DNA of 64,000 nt, taken from NCBI RefSeq assembly GCF_000024545.1, contig NC_013947.1:2914001-2978000 (forward strand), read 5' to 3'. This document shows, one piece after another, positions 27,941-37,384 of this stretch. This stretch comes from Stackebrandtia nassauensis DSM 44728. Lineage in GTDB: Bacteria > Actinomycetota > Actinomycetes > Mycobacteriales > Micromonosporaceae. Below the pieces are notes generated by a model. The model was not told the origin of the DNA, made no database searches, and saw nothing but the letters and a program-made list of their open reading frames with translations. Positions within the stretch are counted from its first letter, which is position 1; every line of letters begins with the position of its first letter. A program made the translations under genes and the position numbers.

Positions 27941-28498
27941 ATGGTCACCAAGACCGATACGAACCTGATCAGCGTTGTCATAGCCGACCACCGCCACATC
28001 GAAGGCGTCTTCAAGGAACTGCTGAACCCCGCCACCCCGCATCCACGGCGGCAGCGGCTGCTGGAGCACGTCATCGGCGAACTGGTGCGGCACGCCACCG
28101 CTGAAGAACGCTACCTGTACCCGTTGGCGCGAGAGCTGCTGGTGGACGGAGACGAGGCCGTCGACCGCGAACTGGCCGAACATGTCGAAGCCGAAGCGGT
28201 GATGCGGAACCTGGAACGTCTCGACGTCGCCGACCCCCGCTTCCTCCCGCACCTGGAGAACCTGATCCGCATCATCCGCCACCACGTCGGCGAGGAGGAG
28301 CGGGTGCTGCTGCCCAAACTGGACCGTGCCGGTGAGGACTCGCAGCTGCGCGAACTCGGCCTGAAGATGTTGCGGTCCAAGGAAACCGCCTCGACAGTGC
28401 CACACCCCGACGCGACCGACCAGCCCTCGGCCGACCACCTTGTCGACACCGGAGCCGGATACGTCAACCGGTTGCGCGACCACCTGACCCGCACCTAA
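27941..28498 (+). CDS. Hemerythrin-like (HHE) domain protein 2
   Basis: A 185-residue paralogue of hemerythrin 1. IADHR, ELVRHATAEERYLYP, EHVEAEAVM and IRHHVGEEERVLLP supply the expected diiron ligands, and the tail TVPHPDATDQPSADHLVDTGAGYVNRLRD repeats the tail of paralogue 1. AGGAGG lies 5 nt before ATG 27941; a GTG at 27896 is unlikely. It is divergent from the GltS-like gene and closed by a bidirectional terminator. Confidence 0.9.
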   Translation: MVTKTDTNLISVVIADHRHIEGVFKELLNPATPHPRRQRLLEHVIGELVRHATAEERYLYPLARELLVDGDEAVDRELAEHVEAEAVMRNLERLDVADPRFLPHLENLIRIIRHHVGEEERVLLPKLDRAGEDSQLRELGLKMLRSKETASTVPHPDATDQPSADHLVDTGAGYVNRLRDHLTRT

Positions 28499-28516
28499 GC
28501 CCACCCAACCCCCACA

Positions 28517-28542
28517 GCGAGCGGTCCACCCGGACCGCTCGC
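28517..28542. terminator. Bidirectional terminator between hemerythrins 2 and 3
   Basis: An 11 bp stem GCGAGCGGTCC/GGACCGCTCGC (28517-28527, 28532-28542) with an ACCC loop; CTCGTTT follows on the plus strand. Confidence 0.8.
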
Positions 28543-28548
28543 TCTCGT

Positions 28549-29019
28549 TTACGCGGTGGGTTCCTGCGCCGCGTCGCGCTGCCGGATCCGGGCGTCCATC
28601 TCGGCCAGCCAGCGAAGCTCGTAGCGGCGGCCCACCTCGTCCAGCCACTCCGAGGTGAACACCTGCCGCAACACGGGCAGCACAGTGGACTCCTCGCTCT
28701 CCATCTCGCTGGCGACCTTGTGGCTGAACATGGTCAGCGAACGCGAGAAGTCCGCGGTCCCCAGATCCCGCTCCACATTGTCCAACTTGGCCTCCAGCTC
28801 CCGATGCTGGACGGTACGGGTACCGACGAGCTCGGAGCACGCGGGGGACTCACGCAGAAGTTCCCGGTAGACCTGCGTCTCGGTGGCGGCGTCGTGAGCC
28901 GCCAACCTCAGTCTCAGCTGCGAGATGAGGAACTCGGCGTCCTGTTCGTCCTGGCCGATCCGGTCGATGAGGTCGCGGATGTCGTCGTGGTCATGGGTTA
29001 TGGCGGCTACGGCGTTCAT
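28549..29019 (-). CDS. Hemerythrin-like (HHE) domain protein 3
   Basis: A 156-residue protein of a different hemerythrin branch from the other two. The ligands are in ITHDHDDIRDLI, LRLAAHDAATETQVY, TVQHRELE and SHKVASEMESEESTVLPVL. The GGAGG site lies 4 nt before the ATG. A SigB-type promoter reads into it, and it is divergent from the DNA that feeds the membrane protein and second TPP enzyme. A putative O2, NO or iron sink under stress. Confidence 0.88.
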   Translation of the reverse strand: MNAVAAITHDHDDIRDLIDRIGQDEQDAEFLISQLRLRLAAHDAATETQVYRELLRESPACSELVGTRTVQHRELEAKLDNVERDLGTADFSRSLTMFSHKVASEMESEESTVLPVLRQVFTSEWLDEVGRRYELRWLAEMDARIRQRDAAQEPTA

Positions 29020-29079
29020 GGCGCCTCCTGTATGCGAGGTTTCGGACTTAGCTCGATTTCCGCCGCACTGTTAGCAGCG

Positions 29080-29105
29080 TTACCCGGAACCCGAATCCGC
29101 TAACC
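29080..29105 (-). promoter_or_regulatory. SigB/SigF-type promoter for hemerythrin 3
   Basis: On the minus strand GGTT (29102-29105), 16 bp, GGGTAA (29080-29085), 60 bp before the ATG at 29019. It lies back to back with the plus-strand promoter at 29112-29137. Confidence 0.65.
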
Positions 29106-29111
29106 AGTCGG

Positions 29112-29137
29112 GTTTGGGCGCGTCGGGGATCGGGTAC
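29112..29137 (+). promoter_or_regulatory. SigB/SigF-type promoter for the TPP-enzyme operon
   Basis: GTTT (29112-29115), 16 bp, GGGTAC (29132-29137). Predicted start about 29145-29148, at or next to a small open frame's ATG. Only 6 bp separate it from the divergent hemerythrin 3 promoter. Confidence 0.65.
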
Positions 29138-29147
29138 CGAATCGGGT

Positions 29148-29330
29148 ATGACAGGCGAAAACGAGCAGAGCACACCGCCCCCCACGCGTCGGGGCAAGCA
29201 CCCGTACCGACGGTGGCGGACGGCGTGGAGACAGCACCGTGAGTCCAACATGGGCTACGTGTGGACACTGGCGCTGTTGATGCCAGGAGGCGACCGTGTT
29301 CGACGAGATTCATTCCCGGCACGGCCGTGA
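29148..29330 (+). CDS. Possible small basic protein (60 aa), leaderless
   Basis: Reads MTGENEQSTPPPTRRGKH..., rich in Arg, with a mildly hydrophobic YVWTLALLM segment. It has no Shine-Dalgarno but begins exactly where the SigB-type promoter should start transcription. Its last 35 bp overlap the next gene in another frame. Third positions are GC-rich except in the overlap. It may be real or only leader sequence. Confidence 0.35.
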   Translation: MTGENEQSTPPPTRRGKHPYRRWRTAWRQHRESNMGYVWTLALLMPGGDRVRRDSFPARP

Positions 29331-29574
29331 CGGCCGCGAGGCGCGCACCGCGCTGCCGGTGTCGCCCCGGTTGAAGGCCGTCACCGCCGCGAGTGGCGCG
29401 CTGGCGTGTCTGACGCTGGCCGCGGTCCTGTGGGCGACCGGTTGGGGGCCGGGCTGGCTGGCCGTGGTGGTGCTGGTCATCGGCGTGTGGGCCGTGGCCG
29501 ACACGGGGTTGCAGTGGCACCGGTACCGCGTGCGAAACCGTGACAATCCAACCAGGAAGGGCACCCAGACATGA
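29296..29574 (+). CDS. Small membrane protein (92 aa)
   Basis: A 92-residue protein with two hydrophobic helices (~27-48 and ~52-68) and charged ends (SRHGRDGREAR, HRYRVRNRDN). GTG 29296 follows a perfect AGGAGG at 5 nt spacing. The stop overlaps the TPP enzyme start (ATGA). I recognise no family. Its coupling to a quinone-type pyruvate oxidase suggests a membrane adaptor role, which is inference. Confidence 0.7.
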   Translation: MFDEIHSRHGRDGREARTALPVSPRLKAVTAASGALACLTLAAVLWATGWGPGWLAVVVLVIGVWAVADTGLQWHRYRVRNRDNPTRKGTQT

Positions 29575-31364
29575 CGTTCACCGTCGCCGACCACATCCTC
29601 GCCCGACTGCGCGAATGGGAGGTCGACACCGTGTTCGGCTACCCGGGGGAGGGCATCAACGGACTGCTGGCCGCCTGGCAGCGGGACACCAAGAACGCCC
29701 CCCGGTTCGTACAGGCTCGGCACGAGGAGATGGCCGCGTTCGCCGCCGTCGGGTACGCCAAGTTCTCCGGACGGGTGGGCGTGTGCGCGTCGACCTCCGG
29801 GCCCGGCGCGATCCACCTCCTGAATGGACTGTATGACGCCAAGATGGACCACGTCCCCGTGGTGGCGATCATCGGCCAGACCGAGCGGGGTGCCATGGGC
29901 GGCACCTACCAGCAGGAGATCGACCTGCCGAACCTGTTCAAGGACGTCGCCGGAGCCTACGTCCACACCGTGACGGTCCCCGAGCAGCTTCCCAACGTCC
30001 TCGACCGGGCGATCCGCACCGCCGTCACCCGGTGCGCGCCCACCGCCGTGATCATTCCGCAGGACGTGCAGGAGCTGCGGTTCCCCGGTCCCAACGAGAC
30101 CTTCCGCCCCTCGCCGTCCAGTGTGGGTATCGAACGGCCGGTCGCCGTACCCGACACCGACGCGCTGGGCCGGGCCGCCGAGGTCCTCAACGCGGGTCAC
30201 AAGGTGGCCATCCTGGTCGGTCAGGGAGCCAGGGACGCCGCGCCCGAGGTCGCGCAGGTGGCCGAGCTGACCGGTGCGGGCGTCGCCAAAGCGTTGCTGG
30301 GCAAGGACGTCCTGCCCGACACACTGCCCTTTGTGACCGGTGCGACGGGTCTGCTGGGCACCCGGCCCAGCTACGAGATGATCCGCGACTGCGACACGCT
30401 GCTGGCCGTCGGGACCAGCTTCCCGTATGCGAAGTTCCTGCCCGGCATCGAGCAGGCGCGCGGCGTCCAGATCGACATCGACGGCGGTATGATCGGCATG
30501 CGCTACCCCTTCGAGGTCAACCTCGTCGGCGACGCCAAGGCGACGCTGCGGCTGCTGATCCCGTTGCTGGAGAACAACCGCAACCGTTCCTGGCGCGACA
30601 AGATCGAAGCCAACGTCGCACAGTGGTGGAACGTGATCGAACAACAGTCGACGGTCAGCGCCAAACCCACCAACCCGATGCGGACCTTCGTGGAGGCGTC
30701 CAAACGGCTGCCCGACGACGCGATCGTCACCTGCGACTCCGGTTCGGCGGCCACCTGGTACGCCCGGCACCTGAAGTTCGGCGAGCACACCCGCGGTTCG
30801 CTGTCGGGAACGCTGGCCAGCATGGGATGCGGTGTGCCCTACGGGATCGGGGCCAAGGCCGCCTTCCCCGAACGTCCGGTGTGGTGTTTCGTCGGCGACG
30901 GCGCGATGCAGATGAACGGCCTGGCCGAACTGCTGACGGTGGGACGGTACTGGCGCGAGTGGGACAACCCGCACTTCGTGGTCGTCGTCCTCAACAACGG
31001 CGAACTCAACCAGGTCAGCTGGGAGATGCGCGCCATGGCGGGCTCCCCGATGTTCCCCGAGTCGCAGACGCTGCCGCAGCTGAACTACGCCAGGTTCGCC
31101 CACGACATCGGCATGGTCGGACTGGAAGTCGGTTCCCCCGAGGACATCCCCGGCGCCTGGGACGCGGCGGTCGCCGCCGAACAGCCCGTCGTGATGGACG
31201 TCCACTGTGATCCGAACGTGCCGCCGATCCCGCCCGCGGCCAGCTTCGAGCAGATCAAGTCGACCACGGCGGCCCTGCTGAAGGGCGATGACAACGCCTG
31301 GGAGGTCCTGAAGGAAGGCGTGATGACGAAGATGAAGGAGATGGCGACGCGTCGCCGCGACTAG
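29571..31364 (+). CDS. Thiamine-diphosphate enzyme 2, pyruvate oxidase-like
   Basis: A 597-residue ThDP enzyme, paralogous to the one at 24.4-26.2 kb. The catalytic Glu lies in ARHEEMAAFAAVGYAKF, GPGAIHLLNGLYDAK is shared with the paralogue, and GDGAMQMNGLAELL...LNNGELNQ is the Mg/ThDP motif. It is likely a pyruvate oxidase or decarboxylase linked to quinone or O2. It is co-transcribed with the upstream membrane protein (ATGA overlap) and reads on into the Rho_N-domain protein, all from the SigB-type promoter at 29112. Confidence 0.88.
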   Translation: MTFTVADHILARLREWEVDTVFGYPGEGINGLLAAWQRDTKNAPRFVQARHEEMAAFAAVGYAKFSGRVGVCASTSGPGAIHLLNGLYDAKMDHVPVVAIIGQTERGAMGGTYQQEIDLPNLFKDVAGAYVHTVTVPEQLPNVLDRAIRTAVTRCAPTAVIIPQDVQELRFPGPNETFRPSPSSVGIERPVAVPDTDALGRAAEVLNAGHKVAILVGQGARDAAPEVAQVAELTGAGVAKALLGKDVLPDTLPFVTGATGLLGTRPSYEMIRDCDTLLAVGTSFPYAKFLPGIEQARGVQIDIDGGMIGMRYPFEVNLVGDAKATLRLLIPLLENNRNRSWRDKIEANVAQWWNVIEQQSTVSAKPTNPMRTFVEASKRLPDDAIVTCDSGSAATWYARHLKFGEHTRGSLSGTLASMGCGVPYGIGAKAAFPERPVWCFVGDGAMQMNGLAELLTVGRYWREWDNPHFVVVVLNNGELNQVSWEMRAMAGSPMFPESQTLPQLNYARFAHDIGMVGLEVGSPEDIPGAWDAAVAAEQPVVMDVHCDPNVPPIPPAASFEQIKSTTAALLKGDDNAWEVLKEGVMTKMKEMATRRRD

Positions 31365-31397
31365 CGGCGGCCGGCCGTCTCCGGGAAGGGAGGCGAG

Positions 31398-31733
31398 ATG
31401 CCACAGCAACAGTGGAGCGCCAAACGAGAACGCCAGTACGAGAAGATCAAGTCCTCGCAGAAGAAGCGGGGAGCCAGCGAAGACCGTGCCGAGGAGATCG
31501 CGGCCCGCACGGTCAACAAGAACCGCGCCCAGTCGGGTGAGGCGAAGAAGTCCAGCAAGCTGTCACGCGAGGACGTCTCGCCGCAGCACCGCGGCGGCAA
31601 ACGCTCCGGCAACCGGCAGGGGCCGGGCGGCCCCACCCTGGACCAGCTGTACCAGGAGGCGCGGCGCAAGAACATCAGGGGCCGTTCCACCATGAACAAG
31701 GCCCAGCTGCAACGAGCCGTCGGCCGGTCCTGA
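31398..31733 (+). CDS. Small basic protein with C-terminal Rho_N-like domain
   Basis: A 111-residue Lys/Arg-rich protein. The first half (QYEKIKSSQKKRGASEDRAEEIAARTVNKNRAQSGE) is the widespread actinobacterial 'plasmid stabilization' small-protein pattern, and the C-terminal LDQLYQEARRKNIRGRSTMNKAQLQRAV resembles the nucleic-acid-binding Rho N-terminal (SAP-like) domain. GGGAGG precedes the ATG. Homologues occur beside stress genes; the function is not established. A strong terminator follows. Confidence 0.8.
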   Translation: MPQQQWSAKRERQYEKIKSSQKKRGASEDRAEEIAARTVNKNRAQSGEAKKSSKLSREDVSPQHRGGKRSGNRQGPGGPTLDQLYQEARRKNIRGRSTMNKAQLQRAVGRS

Positions 31734-31750
31734 CCGACCGACGCGTAAAA

Positions 31751-31784
31751 CGGGTGTCCCAGCTAGTTCTAGCTGGGACACCCG
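31751..31784. terminator. Bidirectional terminator
   Basis: An inverted repeat CGGGTGTCCCAGCTAG/CTAGCTGGGACACCCG (31751-31766, 31769-31784) between convergent genes. The innermost pairs must open to form the loop. Confidence 0.8.
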
Positions 31785-31851
31785 CGTGTGGGTGGGAGAA
31801 ATGAGCTGAGGGGTGGCCAGCCAGGCGACGACGGCTGGCCACCGAGAAATG

Positions 31852-32274
31852 TCAGATGTTCGGCGTCGCCGCGCTGATGTCGGCCAGCGCCGATTCCGGA
31901 TCGAGTTCCTCGGCCAGGTCTCCCAGGCTGACGATGCCGACCGGATGACCGGCCGAGTCACACACCGGCAGCCTCCGGACGCTGCTCTCGCGCATCTGGC
32001 GAACAGCGTCAGCGGTCGAGGAGTCGGGCGCCAGGCAGATCGCCGACGGCGAAGCCACAGCCCCGACCGGTGCCTCCTGCGGGTTGAAACCCTCGGCCAG
32101 GCCCCGCACCACGAGATCGCGGTCGGTGACGATTCCCGACACCCGGCCGTCGTTCATGATGATGACCGAACCGATGTCGTTGTCGCGCATGATCGCGGCC
32201 GTGGCCGAGACCGACGCGTCCTGTGGGACGCATACCGGATTGGGTGTCATGACGCTGGAGATTTGCGCACCCAT
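31852..32274 (-). CDS. Tandem CBS-domain protein
   Basis: A 140-residue protein consisting of two CBS domains (~7-60 and ~72-126): VMTPNPVCVPQDASVSATAAIMRDNDIGSVIIMNDGRVSGIVTDRDLV, then a second copy ending VGIVSLGDLAEE. Such stand-alone pairs bind adenosyl nucleotides and are induced by dormancy or stress (e.g. Hrp1-type). GGAGG precedes the ATG. It lies 55 bp downstream of the sigma gene on the same strand and may share its transcript. Confidence 0.9.
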   Translation of the reverse strand: MGAQISSVMTPNPVCVPQDASVSATAAIMRDNDIGSVIIMNDGRVSGIVTDRDLVVRGLAEGFNPQEAPVGAVASPSAICLAPDSSTADAVRQMRESSVRRLPVCDSAGHPVGIVSLGDLAEELDPESALADISAATPNI

Positions 32275-32310: not shown

Positions 32311-32335
32311 GTACCCAGCCGGACGAAATTCATGC
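32311..32335 (-). promoter_or_regulatory. Possible internal SigB-type promoter for the CBS gene
   Basis: On the minus strand GCAT (32332-32335), 15 bp, GGGTAC (32311-32316). The -10-like half is strong, the -35 half weak. It starts within the last codons of the sigma gene. Confidence 0.35.
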
Positions 32336-33133
32336 GTCCAGCCGTTCCCGCAGCTTCGTCAGCGTCTGCCGCAGCAGCCGTGAGACGTGCATCTGGGAAA
32401 GGCCGACCTCGCGGGCGATCTCCGACTGGTGCAGGTCGTCGACGAACCGCAGTGACAGGATCCGGCACTCGCGGGGCGTCAGTTCCTTGATGGCCGGGCG
32501 CAGCAGCATCCGGGCCTCGGCCGAGGCCATGGCCGGGTCACTGCCACCGAGCGAGTCGATCAGTTCCTCCGACGACTCGCGGTGCGCCGGTGTGTGCAGC
32601 GACACGCCCTCGTAGGCGCCGACGCAGTTGATGCCGGCGCGGACCTGCTCCACCGGCATCGACAGGTACTCGGCGTAGTCCTCCAGTGTGGGACTGCGGC
32701 CGAGCCGCTGGGACAGATCCTTGGACGCCTCGTTGAACGCCAACCGGGTCTCCTGCAGGCGGCGCGGTACCCGCACCAGCCAGCCCTTGTCACGGAAGTG
32801 GCGTTTGAGTTCGCCGAGGATGCTGGGTACGGCGAAGTGGGTGAAGCCACCACCCCGTCCGCACTTGAAGTTGTCGACCGCGTTGATCAGACCCAGTCGG
32901 GCTACCTGGGTCAGATCCTCCAGCGGTTGCCCGCGGTGCTCGAAGCGGCGGGCGAGCCGGTCGGCCAGCGGCAGCGCGCGTTGCACCACGGTGTTGCGCA
33001 GCGCACGGCGGCGGGGATCGGTTTTCTTGAGTCGTTCCATCCGCTCCAGGACGGGTTTGACCTGGGGATCCAGGTCCTCACGCCGGGCGGGGGTCGGTTG
33101 GGTACGGGTTCTGGAAAGTGTCGCATTGCGCAT
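32330..33133 (-). CDS. RNA polymerase sigma factor, SigB/SigF/SigG type
   Basis: A 267-residue group 3 sigma factor. Sigma-2 includes PLEDLTQVARLGLINAVDNFKCGRGGGFTHFAVPSILGELKRHFRD and RRLQETR; sigma-3 covers ~130-185; sigma-4 ends with LRFVDDLHQSEIAREVGLSQMHVSRLLRQTLTKLRERL. This is the general stress branch. ATG 33133 has GGAAG 8 nt upstream. No anti-sigma (RsbW) or antagonist (RsbV) gene is adjacent; instead the divergent gene encodes an ANTAR-GAF-PAS-PP2C protein. It is the natural reader of the GTTT-GGGTAA boxes in this window. Confidence 0.92.
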   Translation of the reverse strand: MRNATLSRTRTQPTPARREDLDPQVKPVLERMERLKKTDPRRRALRNTVVQRALPLADRLARRFEHRGQPLEDLTQVARLGLINAVDNFKCGRGGGFTHFAVPSILGELKRHFRDKGWLVRVPRRLQETRLAFNEASKDLSQRLGRSPTLEDYAEYLSMPVEQVRAGINCVGAYEGVSLHTPAHRESSEELIDSLGGSDPAMASAEARMLLRPAIKELTPRECRILSLRFVDDLHQSEIAREVGLSQMHVSRLLRQTLTKLRERLDA

Positions 33134-33469
33134 GGTTATCACTTCCACGGTTGACGCCGGTCACCGCGCTGATGTGCGCTACCGACGGGAAGTTGTTCGC
33201 CATCTGTGCCCGTTGCTTGAGCACCTTCACGACGCCAGTTCGCGTTATGAGATCGACCTGTGAGCCAGGGGCCGTTGCTTGACCCTCAGAACTGGCTGTA
33301 TGCCGGTCGTGATGGTCACGATACGCCCATTCGCCCCGTTGTGTCAAAGAGGGGCGATTTATTAAGGGAATCCCGAATTATCCTGCGGGACAGCAGTTCA
33401 AGAAAGATCCAAAATGGATTCAATGGTGTTTGTGTGGACAAACGTCCCCGAATCTGCTGTTGTGAGTGC
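33134..33469. other. 336 bp divergent intergenic region (sigma factor / PP2C)
   Basis: Relatively AT-rich. It should hold the sigma promoter(s) and the PP2C promoter (a weak TTGTGT, 15 bp, TATTAA at 33340-33366), plus a small palindrome GTTTGT-GTGG-ACAAAC (33428-33443). I find no SigB-type box here, so autoregulation is not evident. Confidence 0.4.
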
Positions 33470-35821
33470 ATGGCGAAATCCGAGTCCGGCGTGCCCGACT
33501 CCCTCGAAGCGCTGGCGCAGACCGTCGTGAAGCTGCGTTCCGAAAGGGATGGCCTGCGTGAGGCCATGCGCAACCGTGCGGTCATCGAACAGGCGAAGGG
33601 GATGCTCGCCGAACGGCTCTCCCTCGATCCCGAACAGGCGTTTCGGCACATGATCGAGATGTCCACGCGCAACAACGTCAAGGTCGCCGAACTGGCGGCG
33701 GCCGTGGTGGCCGGACGGCAGCCCGAACCGGACGAGCCCACCGAGATCGCCGTCGACACCGCGCCCCCGGTCCCGGACGTGATGGACGCGCCCGAGGCGG
33801 ACTCCCCGCCCATCGACCCCAACGCGCTGCGCTCCGAGGTGAGCCTGATCGGTGGCCGCATCGAGGCCGCCACCAACTTCGACGAGATCGCCGAGTCGCT
33901 GTCGGTGGCCACCTCCGGCTGGCCCGCGCCCGCCAACGTCATCCTGCTGCTGGTGGAGGGGGACGGCGCGCTGCGCCTCGTGGGCTCGGCCGGACTGTCG
34001 CCCACCACCCGCAGCCAGTGGGACCGGGTCCCGCCCATCGAGAACGTGCCCGTCGTCGCGGCGGTCCAGAACCGGGCCCCGGTCTACCTGGCCGACCTGG
34101 AGGCGGTGTCGCGACAGTTCCCCGTCGTCGCCGACCGTCCACACGAGGCGCTGGTGGCGATGCCGCTGATGAACGGCGACGAAGTGGTCGGCGTCCTGGA
34201 ACTCACCTGGGCCACCTCGCCCACCATGGACAAACACACCCGCTCGCACCTGCTGTGGCTGGCCGAACCGGCGGCCCGGCAGTGCCACGCGCTGTCCGCC
34301 CGGTCGGAGGCGTTCACCAACACCTCCATAAGCGACGACGCCGTGGACACCAGCCTGGTCTCGTTGTTCCTGGAGGCGCTGAGCTTCCCGGCCGTCCTGC
34401 TGCAACCGCGCTACGGCGAGAACAACCAGCTGCTGGACTTCGATCCGGTGTACAGCAACTCCGCCGCCGCGCCGGTGACCACCAGGCCCAACGGCCGTCC
34501 GATGAGCCTGATGACCGCGCTGCCCGACTCGGGCGCCCGGCAACTGCTGCCCGCCTTCGCCGCCACCCTGCGGGGCGGCCAGCCGTGCATGCTGCGCGAC
34601 ATCAAGATCACCACCATGAGGGACGGACACCCCCGGATGTTCAACGCCGACATCCGCGGCACCCGGGTGTGGGAGAAACTGCTCGTCACCTGGCGGGTGG
34701 AATCCGAACCGGCCCGGCACTTCGGTTCACTGCTGAACTCGGAGAAGACCTTCGGCACCGGCGGGTTCTACTGGGACCTCGACAACGGCGAGATCCGCTG
34801 GACCCCGGGGATGTACCGGCTGGCGGGCCTCGACCCGGAGAAGGGCACCCCGCCGGTCGACACCATCGTGTCGCTGATCCACCCCCGGGACCAGGAATCC
34901 CTGGTCAAAGAGGCGATGGAGACGCTGAAGGCCGGGCGGGAACTGCGCAAGGAACTGCGCGGCCACGGCGACCTCGACGGCCGGGTGTTCCGCGTGGTGG
35001 CCACCCCCGAACTGACACCCAGCGGCGAGCTGAAGATCGTGCGCGGCGCCGTCCGCGAGATCACCACCGACCGCAGGCTGGGCGACCAGCTGCGCCGCGA
35101 ACGGATGTCGGTGGCCGCCGCCCGCGGCGAACGCGACAACCTGCGCACCGCCCTCGAACCGCTGCTGACACCGCTGCGACTGCGCGGTGGTACCGCCGGC
35201 GTCGAGATCTCCGGGCACTCGCTGGGCTGCGGCGCGCAGTCCGCGCGCAGCTGGTACGACGCCGTGGACCTCCCCACCGGCAGAGTCGCCCTGATCGTCG
35301 GCGAAGTGCACGGCGACCAGCCGACCGCGCCGATGCTGCGACTGCGGCTGTCCACAGCGGCCTTCGCCCTGGCCGGAATGAACCCCGCCGAGGCGATGAG
35401 CGCGGCCAACACGGCCTTCATCGCGACCGTCCCCGACCGCACCGCGACCATGACCCTGGCCAGCCTCGACCCGGCCACGGGCGCCCTCACCTGGGCGACC
35501 TCCGGCCAGGCCAGCCCGGTGCTGTCGTTGGCGTCCAAGTCACGCAACCAGGCCACGGGCTCCCTGGGCCTGCCCATCGGTGCCGACAGTCCACTGGAGT
35601 TCCCGCTCAACCAGGCCGAGATGGAACCCGGTGACCAGCTGCTGCTGTACACCGAGGGCCTCCTCATGGGCCCGGGCAACGGCGGCCCCCGGATGTTCGA
35701 GGCGCTGCGCGAGGCGGCCGCCGCGGCCTCGGCCGAACTGGCCTTCGAGAAGGTCAGCGACGCCGAGCCGCGAGTCGCGGAAGCCGAGGCCAGCCTGCTG
35801 CTGGTGCGTCGGGAGTCGTGA
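33470..35821 (+). CDS. ANTAR-GAF-PAS-PP2C (RsbU/SpoIIE-like) sensor protein with altered catalytic residues
   Basis: A 783-residue multidomain protein. Residues ~15-80 are an ANTAR RNA-binding module (RNRAVIEQAKGMLAERLSLDPEQAFRHMIEMS), ~130-290 a GAF domain, ~415-545 PAS-like (FYWDLDNGEIRWTPGMYRLAGLDP), and ~555-780 a SpoIIE-type PP2C. The metal-binding PP2C motifs are off consensus: ARSWYDA for GGDWYD, GEVHGD for GDVxGHG, and YTEGL for YTDGL. It may therefore be a weak phosphatase or pseudophosphatase. ATG 33470 is the start that excludes a non-protein-like extension; no clear ribosome site precedes it. The divergent sigma factor is its likely output. Confidence 0.85.
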   Translation: MAKSESGVPDSLEALAQTVVKLRSERDGLREAMRNRAVIEQAKGMLAERLSLDPEQAFRHMIEMSTRNNVKVAELAAAVVAGRQPEPDEPTEIAVDTAPPVPDVMDAPEADSPPIDPNALRSEVSLIGGRIEAATNFDEIAESLSVATSGWPAPANVILLLVEGDGALRLVGSAGLSPTTRSQWDRVPPIENVPVVAAVQNRAPVYLADLEAVSRQFPVVADRPHEALVAMPLMNGDEVVGVLELTWATSPTMDKHTRSHLLWLAEPAARQCHALSARSEAFTNTSISDDAVDTSLVSLFLEALSFPAVLLQPRYGENNQLLDFDPVYSNSAAAPVTTRPNGRPMSLMTALPDSGARQLLPAFAATLRGGQPCMLRDIKITTMRDGHPRMFNADIRGTRVWEKLLVTWRVESEPARHFGSLLNSEKTFGTGGFYWDLDNGEIRWTPGMYRLAGLDPEKGTPPVDTIVSLIHPRDQESLVKEAMETLKAGRELRKELRGHGDLDGRVFRVVATPELTPSGELKIVRGAVREITTDRRLGDQLRRERMSVAAARGERDNLRTALEPLLTPLRLRGGTAGVEISGHSLGCGAQSARSWYDAVDLPTGRVALIVGEVHGDQPTAPMLRLRLSTAAFALAGMNPAEAMSAANTAFIATVPDRTATMTLASLDPATGALTWATSGQASPVLSLASKSRNQATGSLGLPIGADSPLEFPLNQAEMEPGDQLLLYTEGLLMGPGNGGPRMFEALREAAAAASAELAFEKVSDAEPRVAEAEASLLLVRRES

Positions 35822-36475: not shown

Positions 36476-37384
36476 CTAGCCGGGCACCTTCGGCCCCTTC
36501 TTCAACACGTCGGCCCACAGGTCACCCTGCTCGGCCACCCGCTCCAGCACCTCGTCGGGCCCGGGCGGCGTCAGCTTGTCGGAGTCCAGCTCCTCCCACG
36601 TCAACGGCGCCGAAACCGTAGCCTCGGCCCGATTGCGCAACGAATACGGGGCGACCGTCGTCTTCGCGGCGTTGTTCTGGCTCCAGTCGATGAACACCCG
36701 CCCCTCACGCTCGGCCTTGGCCATCTTCGCGGTCACCAACTTCGGCTTCTCAGCCGCCAGATCATTGGCCACCGCCTTGGCGTACCCCGACACCACGTCA
36801 TCGCCCTGACTGCCCGCGATGGGACAGCACAGGTGCACCCCACTCTTCCCCGACGCCTTCACGTACACGGTCAACCCGTCGGCCTCAAACCGCTCCCGCA
36901 ACAGCTGCGCCACCTCCACACACTCGCGCAACCCAGCCCCCTTCCCCGGATCCAAATCGGCAACCAACCGATCGGGCCGATCACTCGCCTCATGCCCGTC
37001 GAACCGCCACTGCGGAACATGCAACTCCAACGCGGCCTGATTCGCGAGCCAAGCCAACGTCGCGGGCTTCTCGGCCACGATGTAGTCAACCGAAGCCCGC
37101 CCCTTCGTCGAACCCGGCGTGGCAACCGTCTCGGTCCGAATCCAACTCGGCGTGTACTTCTGAGCGTTCTTCTCGAAGAACGACTCACCCCCGGTCCCAT
37201 CGGGGAACCGGATCCGCGTCAACGGCCGATTCCTGATGTGCGGCAACAAAACCGAGGCGACCTTCAGGTAATAGTCGACGACGTCCTGTTTGGTGAACCG
37301 ACTGTCGGGATACATCACCTTTTCGGGATTGGTCACCTCGATGTCGTAACCGTCCACGGTGATCGTCCTGTGCTCACGTGCCAT
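36476..37384 (-). CDS. LigD-type DNA polymerase/primase (NHEJ) 1
   Basis: A 302-residue stand-alone LigD polymerase domain (archaeo-eukaryotic primase fold). The metal motif is VADLDPG, with ASGKSGVHLCCPI, FIDWSQNNAAKTTVAPYSLR and APLTWEEL as the other family blocks. It fills and templates ends during end joining and works with Ku and a ligase. Here Ku and ligase are ~9 kb away and a second polymerase paralogue sits next to them. A SigB-type promoter precedes this copy. It is monocistronic. Confidence 0.93.
   Translation of the reverse strand: MAREHRTITVDGYDIEVTNPEKVMYPDSRFTKQDVVDYYLKVASVLLPHIRNRPLTRIRFPDGTGGESFFEKNAQKYTPSWIRTETVATPGSTKGRASVDYIVAEKPATLAWLANQAALELHVPQWRFDGHEASDRPDRLVADLDPGKGAGLRECVEVAQLLRERFEADGLTVYVKASGKSGVHLCCPIAGSQGDDVVSGYAKAVANDLAAEKPKLVTAKMAKAEREGRVFIDWSQNNAAKTTVAPYSLRNRAEATVSAPLTWEELDSDKLTPPGPDEVLERVAEQGDLWADVLKKGPKVPG

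Follow-up and report, generated by a model that had tools for sequence, protein, structure and literature searches.

SigB/F-type sigma factors are usually described as being controlled at the protein level, by partner switching, and both RNA control by ANTAR domains and pseudoenzymes of the PP2C family are already known. NmPAL, the PAS-ANTAR-LOV photoreceptor of Nakamurella multipartita, binds hairpins obtained by systematic evolution of ligands by exponential enrichment (SELEX); its aptamers 53 and 58 both have the loop AGCAGC, the aptamer search pattern includes a U-G wobble pair, an A-to-U change in the loop lowered affinity 83-fold, and the sections of that report cited here call the natural RNA unknown and describe optogenetic use by way of in vitro selected aptamers (PMC10966536). 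Here we describe a gene at positions 33470-35821 (plus strand) of a 64,000 nucleotide (nt) stretch of Stackebrandtia nassauensis DSM 44728 (contig NC_013947.1, positions 2,914,001 to 2,978,000; this whole stretch is called the window below), which encodes a 783 amino acid (aa) protein with an N-terminal ANTAR domain, a sensor region and a degenerate C-terminal PP2C phosphatase domain, and which lies beside a divergent gene for a stress-type sigma factor. We consider it probable that the ANTAR domain, gated by the sensor region, controls this sigma factor at the RNA level, and that the PP2C domain is kept in a non-catalytic form.

The protein is one of nine orthologues that form a single clade with 100% support in the Shimodaira-Hasegawa-like approximate likelihood ratio test (maximum-likelihood tree of 58 rows from the ANTAR-PAS part with the PP2C domain excluded, built by a quick method); five are from Stackebrandtia genomes and four from genomes that belong to three other genera, Longispora albida among them. 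A divergent SigF-type gene is found in all nine, 276-635 base pairs (bp) from the aligned ANTAR start. In the window this gene (32330-33148, minus strand) matches the SigB/F/G family TIGR02980 at 252.7 bits (cut-off 234.35), the sole match over the cut-off in the genome, so that the adjacent stress sigma factor named in the original prediction is indeed there; its true start is likely the ATG at 33131-33133.

All nine sigma leaders carry two hairpins on the sigma strand, 18 in total (the discovery set), whose stems end in U-C / G-G (in one case U-U / G-G) and enclose a 7-nt loop, and which have, in 18/18, a U-G pair beneath the closing pair. The window copies, hairpin A (33263-33291, minus strand, 5 contiguous bp) and hairpin B (33201-33229, minus strand, 6 contiguous bp), both have the loop AAGCAAC. 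The two blocks were first spotted by eye in a comparison of the clade's intergenic regions, and the copies of A in the 18-row alignment (A4) were located by similarity to one block, partly by eye. In A4, 78.5% of cells are paired against 65.5% in shuffles, there are 22 double-change cells against 11.0, and the covariation score is 0.378 against 0.180, values reached by 0/500 shuffles in each case; the named register also beats six slid registers on paired cells and covariation. Weaker signals are the number of pairs with a double change (6 against 4.7; 53/500 shuffles) and further pair types (37/500), and part of the double change is supplied by a difference between A and B at one pair. A second alignment (A5) had its rows picked by pairing, which biases its pair counts, and we therefore rely on A4. 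The conserved hairpin in the sigma messenger RNA (mRNA) is probably the target of the ANTAR protein.

A sigma70-type promoter-like site (TTGACA-18-TATCGT, 33318-33347, minus strand) reads into the sigma gene 29 nt before hairpin A, and hairpin B is some 70 nt upstream of the sigma start, an arrangement that would place the two hairpins within the 5' leader. Across the clade the best promoter-like -10 precedes the elements by 11-33 nt in eight of nine leaders and by 56 nt in the ninth, although these promoter predictions are weak (a shuffle fraction of 0.02 or less in only 2/9). This bears on the idea that a transcription factor uses the elements as DNA operators and that they are not RNA hairpins, for which the palindrome GGTCTAGACC, present in some copies of A and similar to a DasR-type site, would speak. 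We find the operator idea quite improbable, since the elements follow the best promoter-like -10 in 9/9 leaders (with the weakness of the predictions just given), a U-G takes the place of a self-complementary pair in 18/18, and the stems vary by double changes.

The original prediction had also proposed that the protein links antitermination to partner switching, and this found no support: the partner-switching arm looks lost (see below), the loop is not the classical hexaloop, and a simple pattern scan of 33100-33520 found no terminator-like site, so that classical antitermination is not favoured. A canonical A1xxG4 hexaloop pair was considered as the target and rejected, there being none in the window's intergenic region and no conserved pair in the nine sigma-ANTAR intergenic regions on either strand; the 18 strand scans gave a single tandem hexaloop pair (L055). 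An Rfam search gave only chance matches below the threshold.

Beyond the clade, hairpins were scored by a rule that requires C or T as the closing base, a T preceding it, a 7- or 8-nt loop with A at position 2 and then GG, and that counts contiguous pairs in the 400 nt upstream of the aligned sigma start; loops of 8 nt were admitted on seeing L071, L072 and L079, ahead of any scan of the test genomes. Among 19 further sigma genes in ANTAR neighbourhoods, 16 have a leader hairpin of at least 6 bp and eight one of 7 bp, and several of these lie beside proteins without PP2C, in Jidongwangia, Nucisporomicrobium, Pseudosporangium, Amorphoplanes and Micromonospora-type genomes. In a first test, 28 genomes were searched for sigma homologues (E 1e-30) and 27 had matches, six with an ANTAR-GAF orthologue (carriers, with no sigma gene within the flanks read) and 21 without. 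At 7 bp, 6/6 carriers have the hairpin (7/24 sigma genes) and 0/21 non-carriers (0/60 genes); the non-carrier genes number 2/60 at 6 bp (L249, L215) and 5/60 at 5 bp, and by genome the counts at 5, 6 and 7 bp are 6, 6 and 6 of 6 carriers against 4, 2 and 0 of 21 non-carriers. A second test, on genomes chosen later with the rule fixed (sigma E 1e-40), compared ten carriers (match start no later than residue 37; 42 sigma genes) with 11 non-carriers (43 genes), the non-carrier status of G058, G101, G118 and some genomes of genus g4 being judged from weak best E-values. Here 7/10 carriers have a 7-bp hairpin against 0/11 non-carriers (10/42 genes against 0/43) and 8/10 a 6-bp hairpin against 1/11 (14/42 against 1/43), the genome counts at 5, 6 and 7 bp being 8, 8 and 7 of 10 against 3, 1 and 0 of 11.

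The two tests together give 13/16 carriers against 0/32 non-carriers at 7 bp (Fisher 2.9e-9) and, by genus, 9/11 against 0/15 (Fisher 1.8e-5, genus g29 counted on both sides), p-values that ignore phylogeny. In 12 of the 13 carriers with a 7-bp match, the ANTAR gene and a sigma gene with the hairpin are on different contigs or over 30 kb apart, so hairpin and protein occur together even where their genes are apart. In a tree of 112 sigma proteins (quick method, many open forks) the 32 with the hairpin fall in several places, often beside paralogues that lack it, and at least 7 state changes are needed; the labels were set by hand, with L215 (6 bp, in a non-carrier genome) as bearing and L291 (8-nt loop) as not. 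The hairpin is thus scattered over several sigma lineages and follows the ANTAR protein rather than any one of them. In two carriers, G179 and G205, matches to a covariance model (R1) trained on the leader hairpins had seemed stray, and proved to lie upstream of sigma genes at or just beyond the edge of the fetched stretch. With R2, a model built without Stackebrandtia, eight of the ten best matches in five Stackebrandtia neighbourhoods (64 kb of sequence) are in sigma leaders.

Other placements of the hairpin were also noted. The leaders of the ANTAR genes themselves have one of at least 6 bp in just 3/58. Within the ANTAR gene of the window a hairpin at 34056-34084 (plus strand) scores 26.6 bits with R1 and 13.1 bits with R2; scoring well with R1 only, it is probably a chance match and was set aside as a target. 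In Amorphoplanes auranticolor the hairpin, with loop AAGTAAC, is also present in the leader of a second sigma gene (L096:14939-15604), situated about 5 kb downstream from the ANTAR gene, so that one ANTAR protein may serve two sigma mRNAs. In Planosporangium (L209 and L238) two hairpins stand 46-47 nt apart in a sigma leader, with the ANTAR gene on another contig.

A number of observations weigh against this reading of the hairpin. It is short: at least five contiguous pairs are present in 12/18 discovery hairpins (L063A with an 8-nt loop), the other six have only 3-4, and random 490-nt windows pass the rule at 2.5% (7 bp) and 5.2% (6 bp). The loops vary, that of hairpin A often being UAGACCC or UAAACCC, and AGCA is found in just 8/18 discovery loops and 10/42 of the later ones. 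The two innermost pairs and the loop A2 are preset by the scan rule, and the 7-bp threshold was chosen after the first test and kept alongside 6 bp for the second. Genome-wide covariance searches failed to single the hairpin out, the leader hairpins having E-values of 0.07-0.4 with R1, a model trained on them, and chance-level values with R2. With a 5-bp threshold, 4/21 and 3/11 non-carrier genomes also pass. No leader hairpin of at least 6 bp was found at the Kitasatospora-type loci L081 and L089 or at L169, nor in any sigma leader of the carriers G033 and G088, which are of the canonical-PP2C type. In G042 the hairpin sigma gene is the neighbour of the ANTAR gene, chance may explain the 7-bp match of G205 (L366) and, in G071, one of the two (L291), and a second, different ANTAR match (a 434-aa frame) lies about 1.4 kb from the hairpin sigma L219 (G044:C508).

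Since both tests are correlations over related genomes, protein and hairpin might also have been inherited together without contact, the hairpin answering to another factor common to these genomes. We regard this as rather unlikely, because the same contrast recurs inside genus g4, where the carriers L155, L163 and L164 have the hairpin at 6 bp and 0/8 sampled non-carriers do, and because of the likeness to the NmPAL aptamers described below. We lean instead towards a widespread natural RNA circuit, in which GAF/PAS-gated ANTAR proteins of the NmPAL class would bind (N)AGCA(A/G)C-loop hairpins in the leaders of SigB/F-type sigma genes, distant ones included, across Micromonosporaceae-type actinobacteria, and in which the phosphatase arm would have been lost repeatedly, by its ligands or as a whole domain, with the RNA arm kept.

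The domain order of the 783-aa protein is ANTAR-GAF-PAS-PAS-PP2C, and the ANTAR-headed PP2C protein that had been read from the letters is confirmed, both domains being above their Pfam cut-offs. The ANTAR domain (33554-33709, residues 29-80) matches PF03861 at 62.7 bits (curated cut-off 27.3, E 2.7e-17), and the PP2C domain (35192-35818, about residues 575-783 by Pfam and fold) matches PF07228 at residues 603-757 (E 2e-22, above the curated cut-off). Between them, likewise above curated Pfam cut-offs, are a GAF_2 domain (33938-34273, residues 157-268, also with fold matches) and a PAS_3 domain (34793-34960, residues 442-497), separated by a PAS-like domain (34352-34714, about residues 295-415) seen in predicted secondary structure and in the model and lacking a Pfam match. 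All are on the plus strand. An AlphaFold2 model of the whole protein made with 22 sequences (mean predicted local distance difference test score 81.4, predicted template modelling score 0.36) gives the order long N-terminal helix running into ANTAR, GAF, two PAS-like domains, connecting helix and PP2C fold. Among solved structures the PP2C part is most similar to the RsbU domain of Rv1364c (3ke6; Z 25.6, root mean square deviation 2.3 over 209 aligned residues, 26% identity), which is also matched by sequence (E 4e-14), and the PP2C fold is, in this prediction, intact despite the altered ligand positions.

The window PP2C domain has the motifs ARSWYDA, GEVHGD and YTEGL, as the original prediction had read them, but the count of three changed metal sites was too low, as the C-terminal DD motif is altered too (AEASLLL) and all four Asp ligand positions (GGD, GDV, TDG and DD) are changed. 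Aligned with SpoIIE/RsbU motifs, S594 (35249-35251) replaces the Asp of GGDWYD, E612 (35303-35305) that of GDV, E729 (35654-35656) that of YTDG and E773 (35786-35788) an Asp of the DD motif, a pairing with SpoIIE residues that rests on motifs and alignment, not on model coordinates. The putative Mn2 ligands of SpoIIE are Asp610, Asp628 and Gly629, and its bound Mn is coordinated by three carboxylates (PMC3517971). Orthologues with the same substitutions are present in all four other Stackebrandtia genomes (34-41% protein identity), a recurrence that puts the substitutions beyond chance. Over the nine members the states at the four positions are SEEE, SEE-, CEEP, AEEP, CEED, SEED, CEEA, CEAD and -NPE, where the SEE- row ends at a contig end and -NPE is Longispora albida, whose PP2C domain is eroded. 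The orthologue of Ca. Stackebrandtia faecavium (L058 / L059) is split, running off the end of one contig with its C-terminal part on another.

Canonical motifs were sought among close relatives and found in none of the eight other clade members, full sets being present only outside the clade, at 23-38% identity. Sister rows from Actinocatenispora, Planosporangium and two further genera read DDDD or NDDD (one row of the Planosporangium group is truncated), the Dactylosporangium sister group reads DDGD, and the Kitasatospora, Lentzea and Saccharothrix relatives keep four Asps and the GHG motif. The Actinoplanes- and Micromonospora-type relatives have no PP2C domain in frame, and none was matched in the flanks read for the named ones. 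With ligand loss in the whole clade and PP2C absent elsewhere, the lesion is old and inherited, and the domain has been lost outright in other lineages. The window protein looks to be a stable pseudophosphatase, and its PP2C domain probably no longer dephosphorylates a STAS partner. We note that L170 (G064:C1:1396946-1399150), a paralogue on a separate branch, also has altered ligand positions (GED-).

That the domain is dead is put in some doubt by D597, retained in all eight clade members that align there, and by the two central D-to-E changes, which keep the carboxylate, so that some metal binding is possible. An active, rewired phosphatase, with E612 and E729 coordinating metal in place of Asp, would account for the near fixation of both (L. 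albida excluded, 612 is Glu in 8/8 clade rows and Asp in 11/11 chosen sister rows, and 729 is Glu in 7/8 clade rows and in the sister rows Asp in 7/11 and Gly in 4/11) at an overall identity of only about 35-40%. It is nevertheless very unlikely in our estimate, as loss or variation affects both the Mn2-ligand position (S/C/A594) and the C-terminal DD, and in SpoIIE a substitution at Gly609, beside Asp610, impairs the phosphatase (PMC3517971). Constraint on the domain is relaxed as well, the ratio of PP2C to core identity being 0.90-0.97 in the clade against 1.07 in the DFCD group, 1.13 in the sister group and 1.57 in the canonical group, and PP2C gaps 0.09-0.13 against 0.014-0.042 in groups with at least three ligands; the sister, canonical and DFCD rows of this comparison were hand-picked, and only pairs with a core identity of 0.25-0.60 were averaged.

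Constraint on the ANTAR domain runs the other way. In the clade ANTAR is the best-kept domain (mean pairwise identity 73%, against 34-45% for GAF and PAS and 37% for PP2C), whereas in the canonical-PP2C group PP2C is best kept at 47% and ANTAR stands at 35% (16 pairs); the three PP2C-bearing groups with the hairpin have ANTAR identities of 69-78%. We read the putative pseudophosphatase domain as being under changed, weaker constraint, and the RNA-binding half looks to be the live half of the protein. Some constraint on PP2C does remain, its identity in the clade without the eroded L. albida (38%) being near the sensor-domain mean (41%), and this, together with the intact predicted fold, could point to a scaffold that works at the protein level, the dead PP2C docking or titrating STAS or RsbW while the hairpins serve another regulator. 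Such partners exist in the genome: the clearest stand-alone STAS and HATPase pair is at C1:526293-527036, about 2.4 Mb from the window, where the best STAS partner candidate (526740-527036) adjoins an RsbW-like kinase. We think a scaffold unlikely, since several lineages have ANTAR, a nearby sigma gene and the hairpin yet no PP2C, PP2C is eroded in L. albida, and the hairpin tracks the ANTAR family. The original prediction rightly found no RsbV/RsbW genes nearby; a profile search of the genome gave 5 STAS and 36 HATPase_c_2 matches, all of them outside the window.

In the mechanism we propose, the cytoplasmic GAF and PAS domains would sense a signal and gate the N-terminal ANTAR domain, which would alter the translation or early termination of the sigma mRNA, in either direction, by binding 5' leader hairpins whose loops resemble (N)AGCAAC. 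The PP2C module would derive from a phosphatase of the RsbU kind with an anti-anti-sigma (STAS) protein as its substrate and, in the clade without the metal-ligand Asps, would be retained as a non-catalytic regulatory or interaction domain. Two guesses of the original prediction, a pseudophosphatase and an RNA-coupled sigma control protein, are both supported and not proven, the first by clade-wide substitutions, the intact predicted fold and the lineages without PP2C, the second by two conserved leader hairpins that co-occur with the ANTAR family.

As for the neighbourhoods, in Dactylosporangium (L065, L079) the sigma gene is 1.7-1.9 kb off, with a glycosyltransferase-like open reading frame (named by eye) between. 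No sigma gene was found near the DDDD/NDDD sisters L064, L066, L068, L069 and L070 (about 5 kb read per side), L080 (8 kb per side) or L067 (only 1.4 kb upstream read). At L165:3357-5498 (minus strand) a frame between the sigma gene and an ANTAR gene without PP2C contains a STAS-like stretch, recognized by eye. Positions 27941-32274 of the window contain two hemerythrin-domain genes and genes for a thiamine-diphosphate-type enzyme (by eye), a CBS protein and a small protein with a weak Rho_N match; this small gene and a LigD-like gene (36476-37384, named by eye) recur near several Stackebrandtia orthologues.

The protein shares with RsbU/SpoIIE phosphatases, such as the Rv1364c RsbU domain (3ke6), its PP2C fold and domain family, and differs from them in the absence of the metal-ligand Asps and of a nearby STAS/RsbW partner. 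With EutV, NasR and AmiR it shares the ANTAR fold and, in the nine-member clade, two leader hairpins; unlike the targets described in the cited parts of those reports, which have a hexaloop with A1 and G4 (PMC8934654, PMC8164766, PMC7496416), the loops here are mostly heptaloops with AG at positions 2-3, no terminator was found at 33100-33520, and most other lineages have a single detected hairpin. ANTAR residue F58 aligns with EutV Tyr164, a conserved aromatic of the RNA site, and Phe is at this position in every aligned orthologue row shown. RNA binding by EutV requires Met172, a residue that has been proposed to set the size of the loop (PMC8934654); in the alignment it corresponds to Thr in the window ANTAR domain and to Ser in NmPAL. 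Actinobacterial ANTAR-target RNAs surveyed with covariance models are likewise ANTAR-linked leader RNAs; that survey describes hexaloop dual stem-loops, and in its main text the words "sigma" and "Stackebrandtia" have 0 occurrences (PMC8164766). Among the papers listed by literature searches, none showed this protein family or the hairpin, and to that extent the pairing of an ANTAR-PP2C family with a hairpin in sigma mRNAs is new.

NmPAL is, like the window protein, a one-component sensor with an ANTAR domain, and the window ANTAR domain aligns about equally to EutV (E 0.004) and NmPAL (6hmj, E 0.005), with 19/57 residues identical to the latter; the window protein has no LOV domain, its ANTAR domain is N-terminal and its (pseudo)PP2C domain C-terminal. 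The sigma-leader hairpins, as putative targets, resemble the NmPAL RNA aptamers (motifs 1-3) in the U-G pair and, less uniformly, in an AGCAGC-like loop (PMC10966536). AG stands at loop positions 2-3 in 13/18 loops of the discovery set and 34/42 later ones, against 39/118 background hairpins (the rule fixes only A2, and the background set includes leaders of part of the studied set), and the full AGCAGC loop is found in 3/42 later loops and in L060B. A scan for AGCAGC, AGCAAC and AGAAAC hairpins around other ANTAR genes was uninformative in this GC-rich DNA. According to the part of the NmPAL report cited here, the genomic candidate Nm60 (UUCAGCAGCGAG) has an additional C-G pair and precedes a PAS/PAC sensor gene, whereas the hairpins here precede sigma genes (PMC10966536). 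If our reading is correct, a sensor-gated hairpin on sigma mRNA would be a second layer of control beyond partner switching, this family would be an example of a phosphatase-based pathway converted to an RNA-based one, and the sigma leaders would supply natural targets for the NmPAL class of ANTAR domains.

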